A stretch of DNA of 53,226 nt from a virus. Made by a program: the position numbers and the translations under genes. Below the pieces are notes generated by a model that made no database searches, was not told where the DNA came from, and saw only the letters and a list, made by a program, of their open reading frames with translations. Below are positions 7,974 through 48,864 of the stretch, one piece after another. Position 1 is the first letter of the stretch; every line of letters starts with the position of its first letter. The stretch is taken from IMG/VR virus record IMGVR_UViG_3300003322_000337, positions 1 to 53,226 of that record; one strand, given 5' to 3'.

Positions 7974-8578
7974 GCCAGAGCCTTCTCGACGGCCTTCAGG
8001 CCTTGCGACGCGACGACCGATCCGCACATCACCTCGCCATAGACGACGGGCACCGCGACGCCCTGCCGGGTGACATTCACCGGGCCGCTGAAGCGGTACG
8101 AGTTCTGGCGGGCATCCTCGGCCGCACTGGCTGCGGTCTTCGCGGCGTTCATCTGCATGATGCCGCCGACGGCCAGGCCGATGCCGGCGCCGATCATGGC
8201 CATGCCGGTCGACGTCGTCGAGCCGTAGCTGAAGAAGCCGACGATGATCAGGATGACGCCGATGACGATGCTGAGCACGCCCTGCTGCTTGCGGCCCTCC
8301 ACGACAGGCACGATGAACACCGGCTCACCGCGGCCGATGGGCGCGTCCAGTGCTTCGGCGCTGATGTTGCCTTCCACGTCCTTGGTGCCAGCGAAGATGT
8401 GGAATCCCGGCTCATGCCCGATGACGTCGCGGCGAAAGCCAGGGATCATCTCCGCCAGGGCCTGGGCCGCCTCGCGGCAGGTCCTGACGGCCAGGCGGTG
8501 CACGCGGCCGTACTTCTTGCCCAGCGAGCCGTACAGCCGCACGTCGCGCAGGTTCTCGGGGCCAAGGGACTGGCTCAT
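7970..8578 (-). CDS. I: Tail assembly protein I
   Basis: 202 residues, starting MSQSLGPENLRDVRLYGSLG, the start typical of lambda gpI homologues; the ATG overlaps the K stop (ATGA). A long hydrophobic and glycine-rich segment (about residues 100-145) is characteristic of the family. It acts in assembly of the tail tip with K, L and J. Confidence 0.88.
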   Translation of the reverse strand: MSQSLGPENLRDVRLYGSLGKKYGRVHRLAVRTCREAAQALAEMIPGFRRDVIGHEPGFHIFAGTKDVEGNISAEALDAPIGRGEPVFIVPVVEGRKQQGVLSIVIGVILIIVGFFSYGSTTSTGMAMIGAGIGLAVGGIMQMNAAKTAASAAEDARQNSYRFSGPVNVTRQGVAVPVVYGEVMCGSVVASQGLKAVEKALA

Positions 8579-35680: not shown

Positions 35681-35752
35681 GCGGGCAATCGTAAGGCATG
35701 CCTAGCACTTTCGCAAGCCATGCCTAGCTCGCATTTCGTTAGGCTTGCCTAA
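35674..35752. promoter_or_regulatory. Left operator cluster (divergent promoters)
   Basis: Three dyads: TAAGGCATGCCTAG (35692-35705), AAGCCATGCCTAG (35715-35727) and the perfect TTAGGCTTGCCTAA-like dyad (35739-35752), plus a half-site TAGGCATGC (35674-35682) over the Cro-like start. The third dyad ends on the first base of the repressor ATG, so the repressor mRNA is probably leaderless or nearly so, and blocked when this site is bound. Confidence 0.75.
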
Positions 35753-36177
35753 TGACACTCGCCGAGCGAATCAACACCCTGCTCGCGCGCACGCCAGGGA
35801 CGATTCCGGCCGATTTGGCGCGCATCGCAGGCGTCAGCACCGCCAGCGTCTCCGGCTGGACGACGGGCGACACGAAGTCGATGAAGCCCGATCCGGCGCG
35901 CCGCCTGAGCGTCCACTTCGGGTGCGATCAGAACTGGCTGATGACGGGGCTTGGCGCTCCGAATTGGCGGGAAGGCGACGGGCCCAATGAAGCACCTACA
36001 CCTCCTCCCGAACCAGTCACCATTCGGCAGGCCGTCACCGTCATCCAAAAGATTCTTATGAACGGCAACGATGCTCAGAATGAGAAAATCGGCGAAGCCT
36101 TGAAGTTGCTGGCCCAGTTGCCCGACAGCCCGCGCGCACTTGAGCAGGTCGTCGCGCAGCTTAGCGCGTTGAAATAG
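35752..36177 (+). CDS. CI-like repressor without cleavage domain
   Basis: 141 residues. The N-terminal HTH (DLARIAGVSTASVSGWTTGDTKSM) and the CDQNWLMTGLG segment are typical of phage repressors of this class. A short P/E-rich linker and a 50-residue helical end (probably dimerisation) follow; the S24 peptidase with its Ser/Lys pair is absent. So RecA-driven self-cleavage cannot be the induction route. No ribosome binding site; operators overlap the start. First gene of the lysogeny operon. Confidence 0.8.
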   Translation: MTLAERINTLLARTPGTIPADLARIAGVSTASVSGWTTGDTKSMKPDPARRLSVHFGCDQNWLMTGLGAPNWREGDGPNEAPTPPPEPVTIRQAVTVIQKILMNGNDAQNEKIGEALKLLAQLPDSPRALEQVVAQLSALK

Positions 36178-36189
36178 GGAGAGGACCCC

Positions 36190-36645
36190 ATGAAATGGTT
36201 AGCCGCGTCCTTGCTGGCACTTTCCATGGGCGCCGCGACGGCCCAGGATGCACCTCTTTCCGTCGTCAAGGTTCACGAAGTGGCTGATCGCACGCAGGTC
36301 CAGCTATGCACCTCGGCGCGCGACTGGGTAGCCAAGACGTTCCGAGATTCCAAGGCGGTCATTGAGGTGTACGACCCCGCTGCCGGTCGCATCATCGGCA
36401 AAGGTGCCGCGACGCTTAGCGGCTGGGCCGGAACCTCGTTCACTGTGCTCTTCACATTGCAGATTGACTGCAAAGATGGAAAGTACCGGACCACTTTCGA
36501 CGCCTTTCAGACTCAGACCGAGTACGGTACGCACCCTCTCAAGGAAGACAGCTTGAACAAGCTGCGCACCAAGGCTGAGGCCAGAGCCCTGGAGCTGGAC
36601 ACCTCGCTGCGCACGCATCTGAACTCCAAGCCTGACGACTTCTAA
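36190..36645 (+). CDS. Secreted DUF4468-like protein
   Basis: 151 residues with a clear signal peptide (MKWLAASLLALSMGAATAQ, cleavage after AQ or close). The mature part carries the DUF4468 pattern: W-x-x-K-T-F-R-D-S-K-A-V-I-E, then GRIIGKG and a beta-rich middle. It follows the repressor by 12 bp with AGGGAGAGG ahead, so it is probably made in lysogens and exported to the periplasm. A lysogenic conversion gene; exact role unknown. Confidence 0.7.
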   Translation: MKWLAASLLALSMGAATAQDAPLSVVKVHEVADRTQVQLCTSARDWVAKTFRDSKAVIEVYDPAAGRIIGKGAATLSGWAGTSFTVLFTLQIDCKDGKYRTTFDAFQTQTEYGTHPLKEDSLNKLRTKAEARALELDTSLRTHLNSKPDDF

Positions 36646-36660
36646 TCGCCACGGCTGTCA

Positions 36661-37371
36661 ATGCTCCGATATCAGGACCTCCTCGACATTGGGCTCTCGC
36701 CTGATGCGGAGACGCTGCAGGCGCGGCTCATTGCCGCCGTTGGCCAACTTGGCTTCGGCCTGTGCAGCGGCATGCTGATTCGCGGACGCATCGCCAAGAA
36801 CAACATCCACTCCTTCGGCAACCCGCCAGACGGCTTCCAAGACGTCTTCATCTCGACGGACCTGTGCGCCCGAGACCCATTCGTCGCAGCGTTGCAGGCG
36901 CAGCCAGGGTGCCACGTCTATGACCAGGCGTTCTACGTCCAAGCTGGCGTCGGCGAGCTGTGGGAGCACTACTCCGCCTTCGGCTATCGCCATGGGATGG
37001 CCATCTCCGCCCACGAGTTCAGCCACGCCGAGAGCTTCTGCTTTGGCGTCGACAGCCATGACCCGCTACCCAATGACAAGGCTGCGCTATTCCGCTTGCA
37101 AGGCTACCTCCAGCTGCTGGCGCAGCACGCACATGCCGCCTCGAAGCGGCTCCACACGCCCGCGCCGGCCGTCGACCTGAACACGGTCAGCAGGGAGGAG
37201 GCCGACGCCCTGCAATGGGCTGCCGACGCTCAATCGGTGTGGCTGACCAGGGGCAAGGTCGTCATCTCCAAGCACGGGGCCGCTCAGCACCGGGCAATGG
37301 CCAAGGTTGGCGCGACGTCGGCGCCCATAGCCATATTGCGAGCCATCGAGGGTGGCCTGATAGATCGTTGA
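36661..37371 (+). CDS. LuxR-type receptor/regulator 1
   Basis: 236 residues. Residues 20-165 fit the autoinducer-binding domain: a DPFVAAL segment (Asp72-Pro73, matching TraR D70-P71), and WEHYSAFGYRHGMAISAH with the conserved Gly. Residues normally Trp57 and Tyr61 in TraR are Phe here, so the ligand may differ. Residues 173-236 form a LuxR HTH (TVSREEADALQWAADAQS ... KVGATSAPIAILRA) lacking the usual GKS glycine. Third gene after the repressor; no clear Shine-Dalgarno, 15 bp after the DUF4468 stop. Confidence 0.72.
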   Translation: MLRYQDLLDIGLSPDAETLQARLIAAVGQLGFGLCSGMLIRGRIAKNNIHSFGNPPDGFQDVFISTDLCARDPFVAALQAQPGCHVYDQAFYVQAGVGELWEHYSAFGYRHGMAISAHEFSHAESFCFGVDSHDPLPNDKAALFRLQGYLQLLAQHAHAASKRLHTPAPAVDLNTVSREEADALQWAADAQSVWLTRGKVVISKHGAAQHRAMAKVGATSAPIAILRAIEGGLIDR

Positions 37372-37403
37372 GGCTCGCGCAACTGGAAATACTGACAGCT
37401 AGT

Positions 37404-37418
37404 AGATTTACCCGAGTA
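37404..37418 (+). promoter_or_regulatory. 15-bp shared element, copy 1
   Basis: AGATTTACCCGAGTA, identical to the minus-strand sequence at 38225-38239 before the second LuxR gene. A CTAG lies a few bases upstream in both. Candidate binding site common to the peptide and LuxR2 transcripts. Confidence 0.55.
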
Positions 37419-37424
37419 TTGCCA

Positions 37425-37462
37425 CAGTGAGTTCAGGCCGTTTTTGGCCTGCCAACTCACTG
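37425..37462 (+). promoter_or_regulatory. Strong stem-loop upstream of the 19-codon ORF
   Basis: CAGTGAGTT and CAGGCC pair with GGCCTG and AACTCACTG: 15 bp of stem with a two-base bulge (CC) and loop GTTTTT. It ends one base into the ribosome binding site GGAGGG. No T-run follows, so it is more like a translation-control structure or operator dyad than a terminator. Confidence 0.7.
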
Positions 37463-37470
37463 GAGGGAAT

Positions 37471-37530
37471 ATGCGCTTTTTCGAAATCCTGGCTGAGCTG
37501 TTCGGCATCCCCGTCGTCGGCGGAGGTTGA
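37471..37530 (+). CDS. Candidate 19-residue peptide gene
   Basis: MRFFEILAELFGIPVVGGG, stop TGA. The ribosome binding site GGAGGGAAT-ATG is excellent and directly follows the strong hairpin. The peptide is amphipathic then hydrophobic with a Gly-rich end, reminiscent of short secreted or imported signalling peptides (for example the GG-ending SHP class in Gram-positive bacteria) or of a type I toxin. It lies between two LuxR-type genes, 1 bp from the stop of the convergent second one. Coding status is unproven. Confidence 0.45.
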   Translation: MRFFEILAELFGIPVVGGG

Positions 37531-37531
37531 A

Positions 37532-38212
37532 TTACCCGGCGGCCTGTAGCCGCCGGACTTCGGAGGGCTGAATCCAGCCCTCGTCGATGGCCATCATCGC
37601 TGCAGCCAAGGTGTTCTCCACACCGCAGCGAATCCGCGCCCGTTCAAGATGGCCCTCGACAGTGCGGGCGCTGATCCCCAGCGCTCCCGCCGCTTCCTTG
37701 GTGCTTGAACTGGCCAGGTAGTACAGCAGGCACTGCAGCTCGCGCTCGCTCAGCGGGCAGGCCTTTGCCGGTGCCAACGCGAACCAAGGCAGCATGCTTT
37801 GGGCGGAGGCGCTCGCGGCCATCATCAACTCCATGATCGATGTCGGCGGCTGATCGGTCGCAAAGACCACCAGACAACCGCTCTTCGCGCCGCGCATGTA
37901 GATCGCGCAGCCATGGTCATACCCCGTGATCGCCAGCATGCCGGGCTTCAGCTCGACCGACGGCACGGGCGTCTGCGTCACCGCCACCAACAGCCGATCC
38001 ACAGCCAAGCGCCCTCGGGGCGCCTTGAGCATCTCTTCCACGCCAGGCCCGCCACTGTGGAAGTACTCCGCCACTCGTCGCTGCGAAACGCCGATGAGTC
38101 TCAGCACCAAAAAGCGCTGCGCTCCTGTCTCCTCACAAATGGTCCCCATTGACCTGGCAAAGCGCTCGGGACTTTCCGGCGCCGAGAGCTCATCGTAGTG
38201 GCTCGAAAACAT
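37532..38212 (-). CDS. LuxR-type regulator 2
   Basis: 226 residues from the ATG at 38212, chosen because AGGGGAAGAG precedes it; a longer frame to 38281 lacks such a site. The C-terminal HTH (residues about 152-214: PLSERELQCLLYYLASSSTKEAAGALGISARTVEGHL) is a canonical LuxR/GerE domain. The N-terminal 140 residues are a probable ligand-binding alpha/beta domain (FLVLRLIG, GYDHGCAIYMRGAKSGCLVVFA). Convergent with LuxR 1 and the peptide ORF. The coding end forms a perfect GC hairpin (CCGGCGGC/GCCGCCGG). Confidence 0.75.
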   Translation of the reverse strand: MFSSHYDELSAPESPERFARSMGTICEETGAQRFLVLRLIGVSQRRVAEYFHSGGPGVEEMLKAPRGRLAVDRLLVAVTQTPVPSVELKPGMLAITGYDHGCAIYMRGAKSGCLVVFATDQPPTSIMELMMAASASAQSMLPWFALAPAKACPLSERELQCLLYYLASSSTKEAAGALGISARTVEGHLERARIRCGVENTLAAAMMAIDEGWIQPSEVRRLQAAG

Positions 38213-38224
38213 CTCTTCCCCTGC

Positions 38225-38239
38225 TACTCGGGTAAATCT
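38225..38239 (-). promoter_or_regulatory. 15-bp shared element, copy 2
   Basis: On the minus strand AGATTTACCCGAGTA, 12 nt before the LuxR 2 ATG. A TGCCTAGC, like the repressor operator half-site, lies just upstream (minus strand, around 38244-38251). Confidence 0.55.
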
Positions 38240-38412
38240 GCCAGCTAGGCAGCTTGAGGCCAACCCGTCAAACTCGCTCATCGCTGCATCTTGATTGTGC
38301 TGGCCGCAACCCCTAGAAGCTCTTCATTAGAGGCCGTTAGGCCCACTGCTTCACGGGATTGTTGCGCCGGTCAATATTCACATTCCGGGGCGCTATAGGA
38401 GAGGTCGAACCA

Positions 38413-38726: not shown

Positions 38727-38796
38727 CTAGGTGTTTACACCTAGTTAGCAATTCCGCTAGGCATACCTATTGACCAAAACGCTAGGTATGCCTAGC
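38727..38796. promoter_or_regulatory. Right operator cluster
   Basis: Three dyads: CTAGGTGT-TT-ACACCTAG (38727-38744, perfect), CTAGGCATACCTA (38757-38769) and GCTAGGTATGCCTAGC (38781-38796). They share the CTAGG half-site with the left cluster. They lie just upstream of the rightward early/recombination operon, so the same repressor probably shuts it in the lysogen. Confidence 0.75.
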
Positions 38797-38845
38797 ATTC
38801 GTTCCGTGCCCAAGAAAACGCCATCCGGCGGGGCAGGGAGCAGGG

Positions 38846-48006: not shown

Positions 48007-48283
48007 CGCGAACCGCAAACTCGCCCCTGGAGCAGATCGGCGCCGGCCGGTGCTGATGGGCGCCTTTGTCGAGTCCTACCCTGTCTCGGCCTGGACCCGC
48101 ATCCCCAAGGACGTGTCGCTCGACGACCTGTGGCAAATCATCGGCCCGCAGGTGGACAGGCACCTGAACAGCCTGCCGCTCTGGAAGGTGTTCTGCGTCG
48201 TCTATTTCGAGGGCCTCATGCACGGCGCTGCCGTTGCCAAAGCCAATCCCATCCCCTCACAGGGCACATCGCCCACAACTTAA
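47999..48283 (+). CDS. Small hypothetical protein
   Basis: Ninety-four residues, starting 8 bp before the end of the previous gene. Contains SAWTRIPKDVSLDDLWQIIG and a mixed hydrophobic end (LWKVFCVVYFEGLMHG). Unknown. Confidence 0.55.
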   Translation: MADANRKLAPGADRRRPVLMGAFVESYPVSAWTRIPKDVSLDDLWQIIGPQVDRHLNSLPLWKVFCVVYFEGLMHGAAVAKANPIPSQGTSPTT

Positions 48284-48294
48284 AGGAAATAACC

Positions 48295-48864
48295 ATGAAG
48301 ACGGAAATCATTGCCATTCTGGACCGCAGCGGCTCGATGGCGAGCATCGTTGCTGACGCCATCGGCGGCTTCAACACCTTCCTCGCTGACCAGAAGGCGG
48401 CGCCCGGCGAAGCGCGCATGACGCTGGCGCTGTTCGATGACCGCTATGACGTTCTCTACGCCGGCAAGCCCATTCAAGAAGCCGACCCGCTGACCGACAA
48501 GACTTTCGTCCCGCGCGGCGGCACTGCGCTGCTCGATGCAATCGGCAAGACCATGAACCTGCAAGGCGCGCGCATCAAGGCCGAAGGCTGGGCCGAGAAG
48601 GTGATCGTCTGCATCCTGACGGACGGCGGCGAGAACCAAAGCCGCGAGTTCACTCGCGACCAGATCAAGACCATGGTCACGCACGCCGAAGGCCACGGCT
48701 GGAGTTTCGTTTTTCTGGCCGCCAATCAAGACGCCTTCGCGGCCGGCGCGAGCTACGGCATCAGCGCAGCCCACACGATGGCCTTCGCAGCCAACGCCAC
48801 CGGGACACAGACCGCCTATGCGTCCATGAGCGCGACCACACGAAGCCTGCGCGGCGCCCCCTGA
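48295..48864 (+). CDS. Von Willebrand factor A domain protein
   Basis: 189 residues, essentially one VWA domain. The metal site (MIDAS) has DRSGSM (DxSxS, residues 9-13) and later TDGGE; a GGTALLDAIG segment gives the third ligand. AAAGGA precedes the ATG. There is no signal peptide, so it acts in the cytoplasm. VWA proteins in phages are uncommon and often partner with AAA ATPases; no such partner is next to it. Confidence 0.85.
   Translation: MKTEIIAILDRSGSMASIVADAIGGFNTFLADQKAAPGEARMTLALFDDRYDVLYAGKPIQEADPLTDKTFVPRGGTALLDAIGKTMNLQGARIKAEGWAEKVIVCILTDGGENQSREFTRDQIKTMVTHAEGHGWSFVFLAANQDAFAAGASYGISAAHTMAFAANATGTQTAYASMSATTRSLRGAP

Follow-up and report, generated by a model that had tools for sequence, protein, structure and literature searches.

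A LuxR/peptide module beside CI-type repressors in phages and prophages and its relation to a betaproteobacterial LuxR family

The IMG/VR virus record IMGVR_UViG_3300003322_000337 (53,226 bases, analysed whole and called the window below) contains integrase and packaging genes and, at 36661-38212, two LuxR-type genes, LuxR-A and LuxR-B, separated by an open reading frame (ORF) of 19 codons. This trio was found in six phages or prophages, the window included, and host chromosomes carry a family of LuxR genes accompanied by peptides, so that sequence comparison gives good support to a conserved LuxR/peptide module with a link to lysogeny. The module is probably a lysogeny-linked regulatory cassette that is transferable and was assembled from a betaproteobacterial LuxR-solo/peptide pair, in other words a LuxR-peptide circuit tied to lysogeny. 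An earlier note on this DNA had described a repressor operon running into a LuxR-type gene, then a hairpin and a 19-codon ORF facing a convergent second LuxR-type gene, beside a repressor described as not cleavable by RecA. The genes, the hairpin and the ORF were all borne out (Table 1), and the pair and the ORF, on whose conservation in relatives the proposal had been made to depend, are the very genes retained in the six modules.

Recurrence of the trio

LuxR-A, the peptide ORF and a convergent LuxR-B were observed in the same order in the window, in three other IMG/VR records (L001, L051 and L237) and in the prophages of two bacterial genomes (L221 and L222). In L001, a 54.7-kb phage, LuxR-A and LuxR-B match those of the window at 66% and 44%, respectively, and the peptide reads MHSFFDAFLELLGIPYGGG. 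The L051 peptide, MQAFFDVLAELFGIPITGGGR, sits between the tail of LuxR-A, within which the record ends, and the LuxR-B gene; apparent terminase genes adjoin it. A family-level genome search led to L221 (MSFFAAFLEVFSLPRTGGGW) and L222 (MSFISILSFIALALPRTGGGW), for which the surrounding phage genes were identified, and the L237 peptide (MSIFAALAELFSLPRTGGGGF) was located by alignment search.

Scans for close relatives of LuxR-A and LuxR-B returned only L001 in IMG/VR and nothing useful in 50,697 phage records, plasmids and genome contigs, and they were outperformed by peptide-pattern and wider-alignment scans. The peptide pattern alone, scanned blind, uncovered new LuxR loci in two collections. 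In IMG/VR its C-terminal part gave 11 stretches, with short-ORF endings only at the already known L001 and L051, and over 401 genomes of the family one further match was obtained. A DNA pattern of the hairpin base matched only L001 and unrelated DNA.

A CI-type repressor adjoins the module in all five cases with visible context (window, L001, L221, L222 and L237). It lies ahead of LuxR-A in four of them, while in L001 the module is flipped and the repressor stands ahead of LuxR-B. Each of these five repressors has a helix-turn-helix (HTH) and none has a match to the S24 peptidase family, which in the window was sought with Pfam. They vary between loci in length and in best family matches, while the peptide stays conserved. 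Since the L001 phage lacks a match to the window TerL, and since the module is flipped beside the L001 repressor, the trio rather than the phage looks like the unit.

In the window, LuxR-A belongs to the repressor operon, after the repressor and a DUF4468 gene. It aligns with complete LuxR proteins over the full length and has homologues in L001, L221, L222, L237 and, for the tail only, L051; no copy retains the HTH signature. In the window, L001, L221, L222 and L237, the Autoind_bind domain was found whereas GerE gave no match and its key residues are lost. The non-HTH C-terminal domain is, as judged from codon comparison, under purifying selection and not decaying; between the window and L001, pN and pS are 0.28 and 0.61 over the last 66 codons and 0.21 and 0.58 overall, values that stand as a bound and not an estimate because synonymous sites are near saturation. 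The position of TraR-W57, the tryptophan that contacts acyl-homoserine lactones (AHLs), is occupied by Tyr or Phe in the five phage copies compared, which makes AHLs unlikely ligands of LuxR-A. The same replacement was seen in 50 of 52 host proteins. In LuxR-A the Asp of the AHL site is retained and the second Trp is replaced by Tyr.

Only LuxR-B carries a recognisable LuxR DNA-binding domain, so that the paired receptors of the earlier note do flank the peptide ORF but are unequal. Homology to L001 points to ATG 38212 rather than 38281 as its likely start. Its N-terminal region is unrecognised by Pfam and without sequence match to Autoind_bind. An AlphaFold model from three sequences reached a pLDDT of 70.8, and its best PDB matches in Foldseek were TraR/RhlR-type receptors (E 1e-7), but the whole-chain TM is only ~0.3, so that a LuxR-type sensor fold is no more than probable. 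In the host genus, no LuxR-B was found at E 1e-14 among 81 genomes.

The phage peptides have 19-21 residues and are related by alignment to peptides associated with host LuxR genes; the arrangement of LuxR-A followed by a same-strand small ORF with a P-x(1-2)-G core is that of the host LuxR-peptide loci. Between the window and L051, pN is 0.13 and pS 0.44 for the peptide ORF. A hairpin is present at the peptide ribosome-binding site in the five modules tested (window, L001, L051, L221 and L222; z -3.2 to -4.9, and -3.2 to -4.0 in the four other than the window), although its sequence differs between modules and its stem spans the start codon in L221 and L222. A leader-peptide or attenuator reading was ruled out, as the next downstream gene lies on the opposite strand.

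Two kinds of element go beyond the earlier note, namely a lux-box-like dyad and a pair of 22-nt boxes. The two boxes of the window are alike at 20 of 22 positions and have the same orientation relative to their own gene, the peptide ORF or LuxR-B; the 15-nt core has no further occurrence in the window with 3 mismatches allowed. The L001 pair is internally alike (19/22) but unlike that of the window, with 14/22 for the peptide-side boxes in a by-eye count. Joint drift of box and binding protein would be expected to leave boxes that are alike within a locus and different between loci.

Table 1. Features of the module and its surroundings in the window
Feature	Position	Strand	Remarks
CI-type repressor, 141 aa, HTH	35752..36177	+	First gene of the operon; Pfam/PHROG repressor matches, phrog_2328 8.8e-10
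DUF4468 protein, signal-peptide-like (PHROG 4002)	36190..36645	+	Pfam 4.3e-11, PHROG 6e-22
LuxR-A, autoinducer-binding-like domain and degenerate GerE domain	36661..37371	+	Pfam Autoind_bind 1.3e-11, GerE unmatched
Lux-box-like dyad CTGGAAATACTGACAG	37383..37398	+	88 nt ahead of peptide ATG; 2 mismatches to host consensus CTGTAAGNNCTGACAG
22-nt box AGCTAGTAGATTTACCCGAGTA	37397..37418	+	Copy also in LuxR-B 5' region; directly upstream of peptide ORF
5' untranslated region (5'UTR) hairpin touching the Shine-Dalgarno (SD) of the peptide ORF	about 37425..37462	+	z -3.9; -4.9 with start codon included
19-codon ORF MRFFEILAELFGIPVVGGG	37471..37530	+	Strong SD GGAGGG; homologues in the corresponding position of 5 other modules
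LuxR-B, LuxR-fold sensor-like N-terminus and GerE DNA-binding domain	37532..38212	-	GerE 9.7e-10; convergent with peptide ORF
22-nt box, second copy	38225..38246	-	12 nt before likely LuxR-B start codon

The DUF4468 gene is outside the conserved trio, being missing from the corresponding place in L001, L221 and L222; within the repressor operon it may be a lysogenic-conversion gene. Repeated palindromic TAGGCATGCCTA-like sites flank the operon at 35687-35739 and 38756-38797 and are likely repressor operators. Elsewhere in the window, the ORF at 48130-48864 contains MKTEIIAILDRSGSM and resembles a von Willebrand-type domain protein. PADLOC returned no defence matches.

A host family of LuxR genes with peptides

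When about 85,000 genomes were scanned with the peptide pattern, 56 stretches matched, and one of these, L067, adjoins a relative of LuxR-A. In this betaproteobacterial metagenome-assembled genome, a full LuxR with intact GerE is followed by MLDFILELLGIPRGGGW, upstream of mnmG. The LuxR of L067 was found in 43 of 60 genomes of its genus, and an order-level search at E 1e-40 gave 2 of 150 genomes, one being the L067 genome itself.

The host loci were sampled within one betaproteobacterial genus, where most genes of one LuxR-solo clade precede, by motif and position, a small ORF with an xPxGxW-type core. Under a strict definition (P..GGW/GDW, at most 600 nt after LuxR), such an ORF follows 23 of 52 distinct genes, compared with 3 on the reverse strand and 0.6 in shuffles; at least one of the three reverse-strand matches (L159) is the genuine peptide of a convergent partner LuxR. 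Most remaining LuxR genes have double-glycine precursors with variant and often repeated cores, such as four copies of LPRGTW, two each of SPKGTW, SPNGTW and APRSGW and, elsewhere in the family, five of GPNGGW. A relaxed count of 42 out of 52 used a looser motif without a null. A lux-box with at most 2 mismatches to CTGTAAGNNCTGACAG was present in 26 of 42 host loci, mostly 90-94 nt ahead of the start of the peptide, and in none of the shuffles. This position-anchored test was decisive, while a search for boxes shared by LuxR and peptide promoters in single loci stayed mostly at noise level.

The peptides fall into leader-bearing precursors (class i) and short peptides without leader or exporter (class ii). 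All ten class i loci checked have a C39-peptidase ABC exporter on the LuxR strand, 1.3-2.5 kb downstream of that gene, and in L150 and L166 Pfam identifies C39, ABC and HlyD. The leader-bearing class thus looks like a secreted-pheromone system. No LuxI was found in 19 of 20 of these host genomes. Similarly, no AHL synthase (PF00765) was found in G000, G001, G078 and G080, while the same method detects one in G002. The divergent neighbour of the host LuxR is DUF4902/RsaM-like, with a weak match in some cases. A reading of the peptides as ribosomally synthesized and post-translationally modified peptides was set aside, as it had only a single sub-threshold XyeA match in its favour, nor was a modifying enzyme noticed in the vicinity.

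Phage LuxR-A forms a long branch of the tree, placed inside the clade of host class ii receptors with support 94/98, and no double-glycine leader was seen in the phage peptides, which are class ii-like. On this sequence evidence, the host loci explain the origin of the module, with the short-peptide class as the source of the phage version.

Some chromosomal loci deserve mention in their own right. Across L118-L187 and L208-L230, LuxR solos with downstream xPxGxW precursors are widespread, many of them leader-bearing, with tandem cores and a C39 exporter. In L159 (7353-9167) and L160 (7119-9165), two full LuxR genes converge on an intervening peptide ORF, a phage-like layout. In L155 (about 8015-8155), two tandem and near-identical ORFs, MLELILSYF[FY]DLPRGGGGWA, follow one LuxR and suggest a recent duplication of the signal gene.

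Possible working and rival explanations

If the module is a LuxR-peptide circuit tied to lysogeny, LuxR-A would be expressed from the repressor operon in the lysogen and would bind the peptide and/or pair with LuxR-B. The peptide may be a ligand or a protein partner of the LuxR-A sensor domain, and LuxR-B would be the DNA-binding arm, acting on the boxes upstream of the LuxR-B and peptide genes; in this way LuxR-A would make LuxR-B output depend on the amount of peptide. Translation of the peptide would be kept low by the 5'UTR hairpin. A threshold of peptide or LuxR-B might be reached through more phage genomes or through import from other lysogens, and past it the balance between repressor and lytic promoters would shift with no requirement for RecA cleavage. 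It is possible, if somewhat doubtful, that the history is larger: a betaproteobacterial peptide quorum sensing, with LuxR receptors and C39-exported xPxGxW signals from often multi-copy precursors, would have been split and adopted by temperate phages as a private, RecA-independent lysogeny switch, an arbitrium analogue made from unrelated parts in Gram-negative hosts.

Several observations weigh against such a circuit. The peptides of L221, L222 and L237 retain an Arg-Thr-Gly core, whereas those of the window, L001 and L051 lack that Arg and the Trp, and with this split they may not all do the same thing. No C39 exporter was found in the phage records G000 and G001 or beside class ii loci. 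The shared 22-nt box is clear only in the window and L001, and the structure model of LuxR-A (pLDDT 48) is too poor for judging its pocket. From the communication-controlled switch put forward in the earlier note, the conserved lysogeny-linked module stands, while cell-to-cell signalling remains hypothetical for a peptide class without leader or exporter.

An antirepressor role appears unlikely, although it has a precedent. LuxR-B would activate the peptide gene and the 19-residue product would directly inactivate the neighbouring repressor. Modules of Vibrio and Aeromonas phages share this logic of a transcription factor and an adjoining small ORF (smORF) beside CI, and among them are LuxR-type factors whose smORF runs in the opposite direction (Silpe et al. 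2023, PMC10432266). Besides, repressors without S24 need another route of inactivation. However, the peptide motif is common to chromosomal LuxR-associated peptides that have no adjoining repressor, the peptide is conserved although the repressors differ, and the 19-codon ORF is far shorter than the 156-nt smORF of PMC10432266.

It is equally improbable that the module serves to interfere with the host. HTH-less LuxR-A would then be a dominant-negative protein or a decoy titrating host pheromone or LuxR, the peptide a competitor or antagonist, and LuxR-B would only regulate the cassette. TrlR is one HTH-less LuxR protein that antagonises a full LuxR. CerN is another (PMC11655674). The peptides of the window, L001 and L051 keep the P..GG frame without the host Trp, and a host-type lux-box is kept ahead of the phage peptide gene. 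Nevertheless, the two lysogen genomes (G078 and G080) have leader-bearing loci of their own, whose cores (APKSGW and APKSTW) differ from LPRTGGGW of the prophages, a difference in favour of a separate channel and against simple mimicry; an own LuxR-B and the position in the repressor operon also fit self-regulation better. Finally, hitch-hiking of a mobile host regulatory cassette with host targets and no lysogeny role would suit phages with unrelated packaging genes and host versions that stand alone, but it is very improbable given a CI-type repressor beside each of the five modules with context.

Comparison with known systems

LuxR-type receptors are taken to sense AHLs or other small molecules, and many LuxR solos are without a known ligand. 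Should the pairing be real, one LuxR-solo clade would gain a candidate ligand encoded in the adjacent gene, which short synthetic peptides could test directly, and the host LuxR-peptide pairing, if confirmed, would form a class of its own. In phages of Gram-negative hosts, the module would then act as a lysogeny switch linked to a peptide, built on the LuxR fold and accompanied by repressors without a RecA-cleavage domain.

The arbitrium system (AimR/AimP/AimX) of SPbeta-group phages likewise places a short phage peptide gene beside the gene of an intracellular receptor and is linked to lysogeny. AimR, from Gram-positive hosts, is of the TPR/RRNPP type, and maturation of the exported AimP yields a hexapeptide. 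In the window, on the contrary, both receptors match LuxR-family models and not TPR-type ones, and no export signal was seen.

The LuxR/XRE-smORF induction modules of Aeromonas phages Apop and ARM81ld (Silpe et al. 2023, PMC10432266) resemble the window in their phage LuxR-type factor, counter-oriented small ORF and nearby CI repressor. As in the transcription factor-smORF arrangement of these authors, a small ORF here adjoins a transcription factor gene near CI, while the S24-containing CI of their definition was seen in none of the five repressors. Apop and ARM81ld have a single LuxR with an XRE partner, a C4-HSL ligand, a 156-nt smORF and a RecA-cleavable CI; the window differs by two LuxR-type proteins, one of them HTH-less, by the loss of the AHL-site Trp, by a host-related peptide of 19-21 residues and by repressors without S24. 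HTH-less LuxR proteins such as CerN (PMC11655674) have an autoinducer-binding domain without HTH and act with a full LuxR; LuxR-A differs in that it retains a conserved non-HTH C-terminal domain and is accompanied by a peptide gene.

No report of a LuxR paired with a ribosomal peptide signal was found in the literature searched, which included the reviews PMC10134790 and PMC10710839 and excluded bioRxiv preprints and most subscription journals. LuxR solos with a divergent DUF4902-like gene, reviewed in PMC10710839 without mention of peptides, have the same neighbour as the host loci described here, to which these loci add peptide precursors and a C39 exporter downstream of LuxR.

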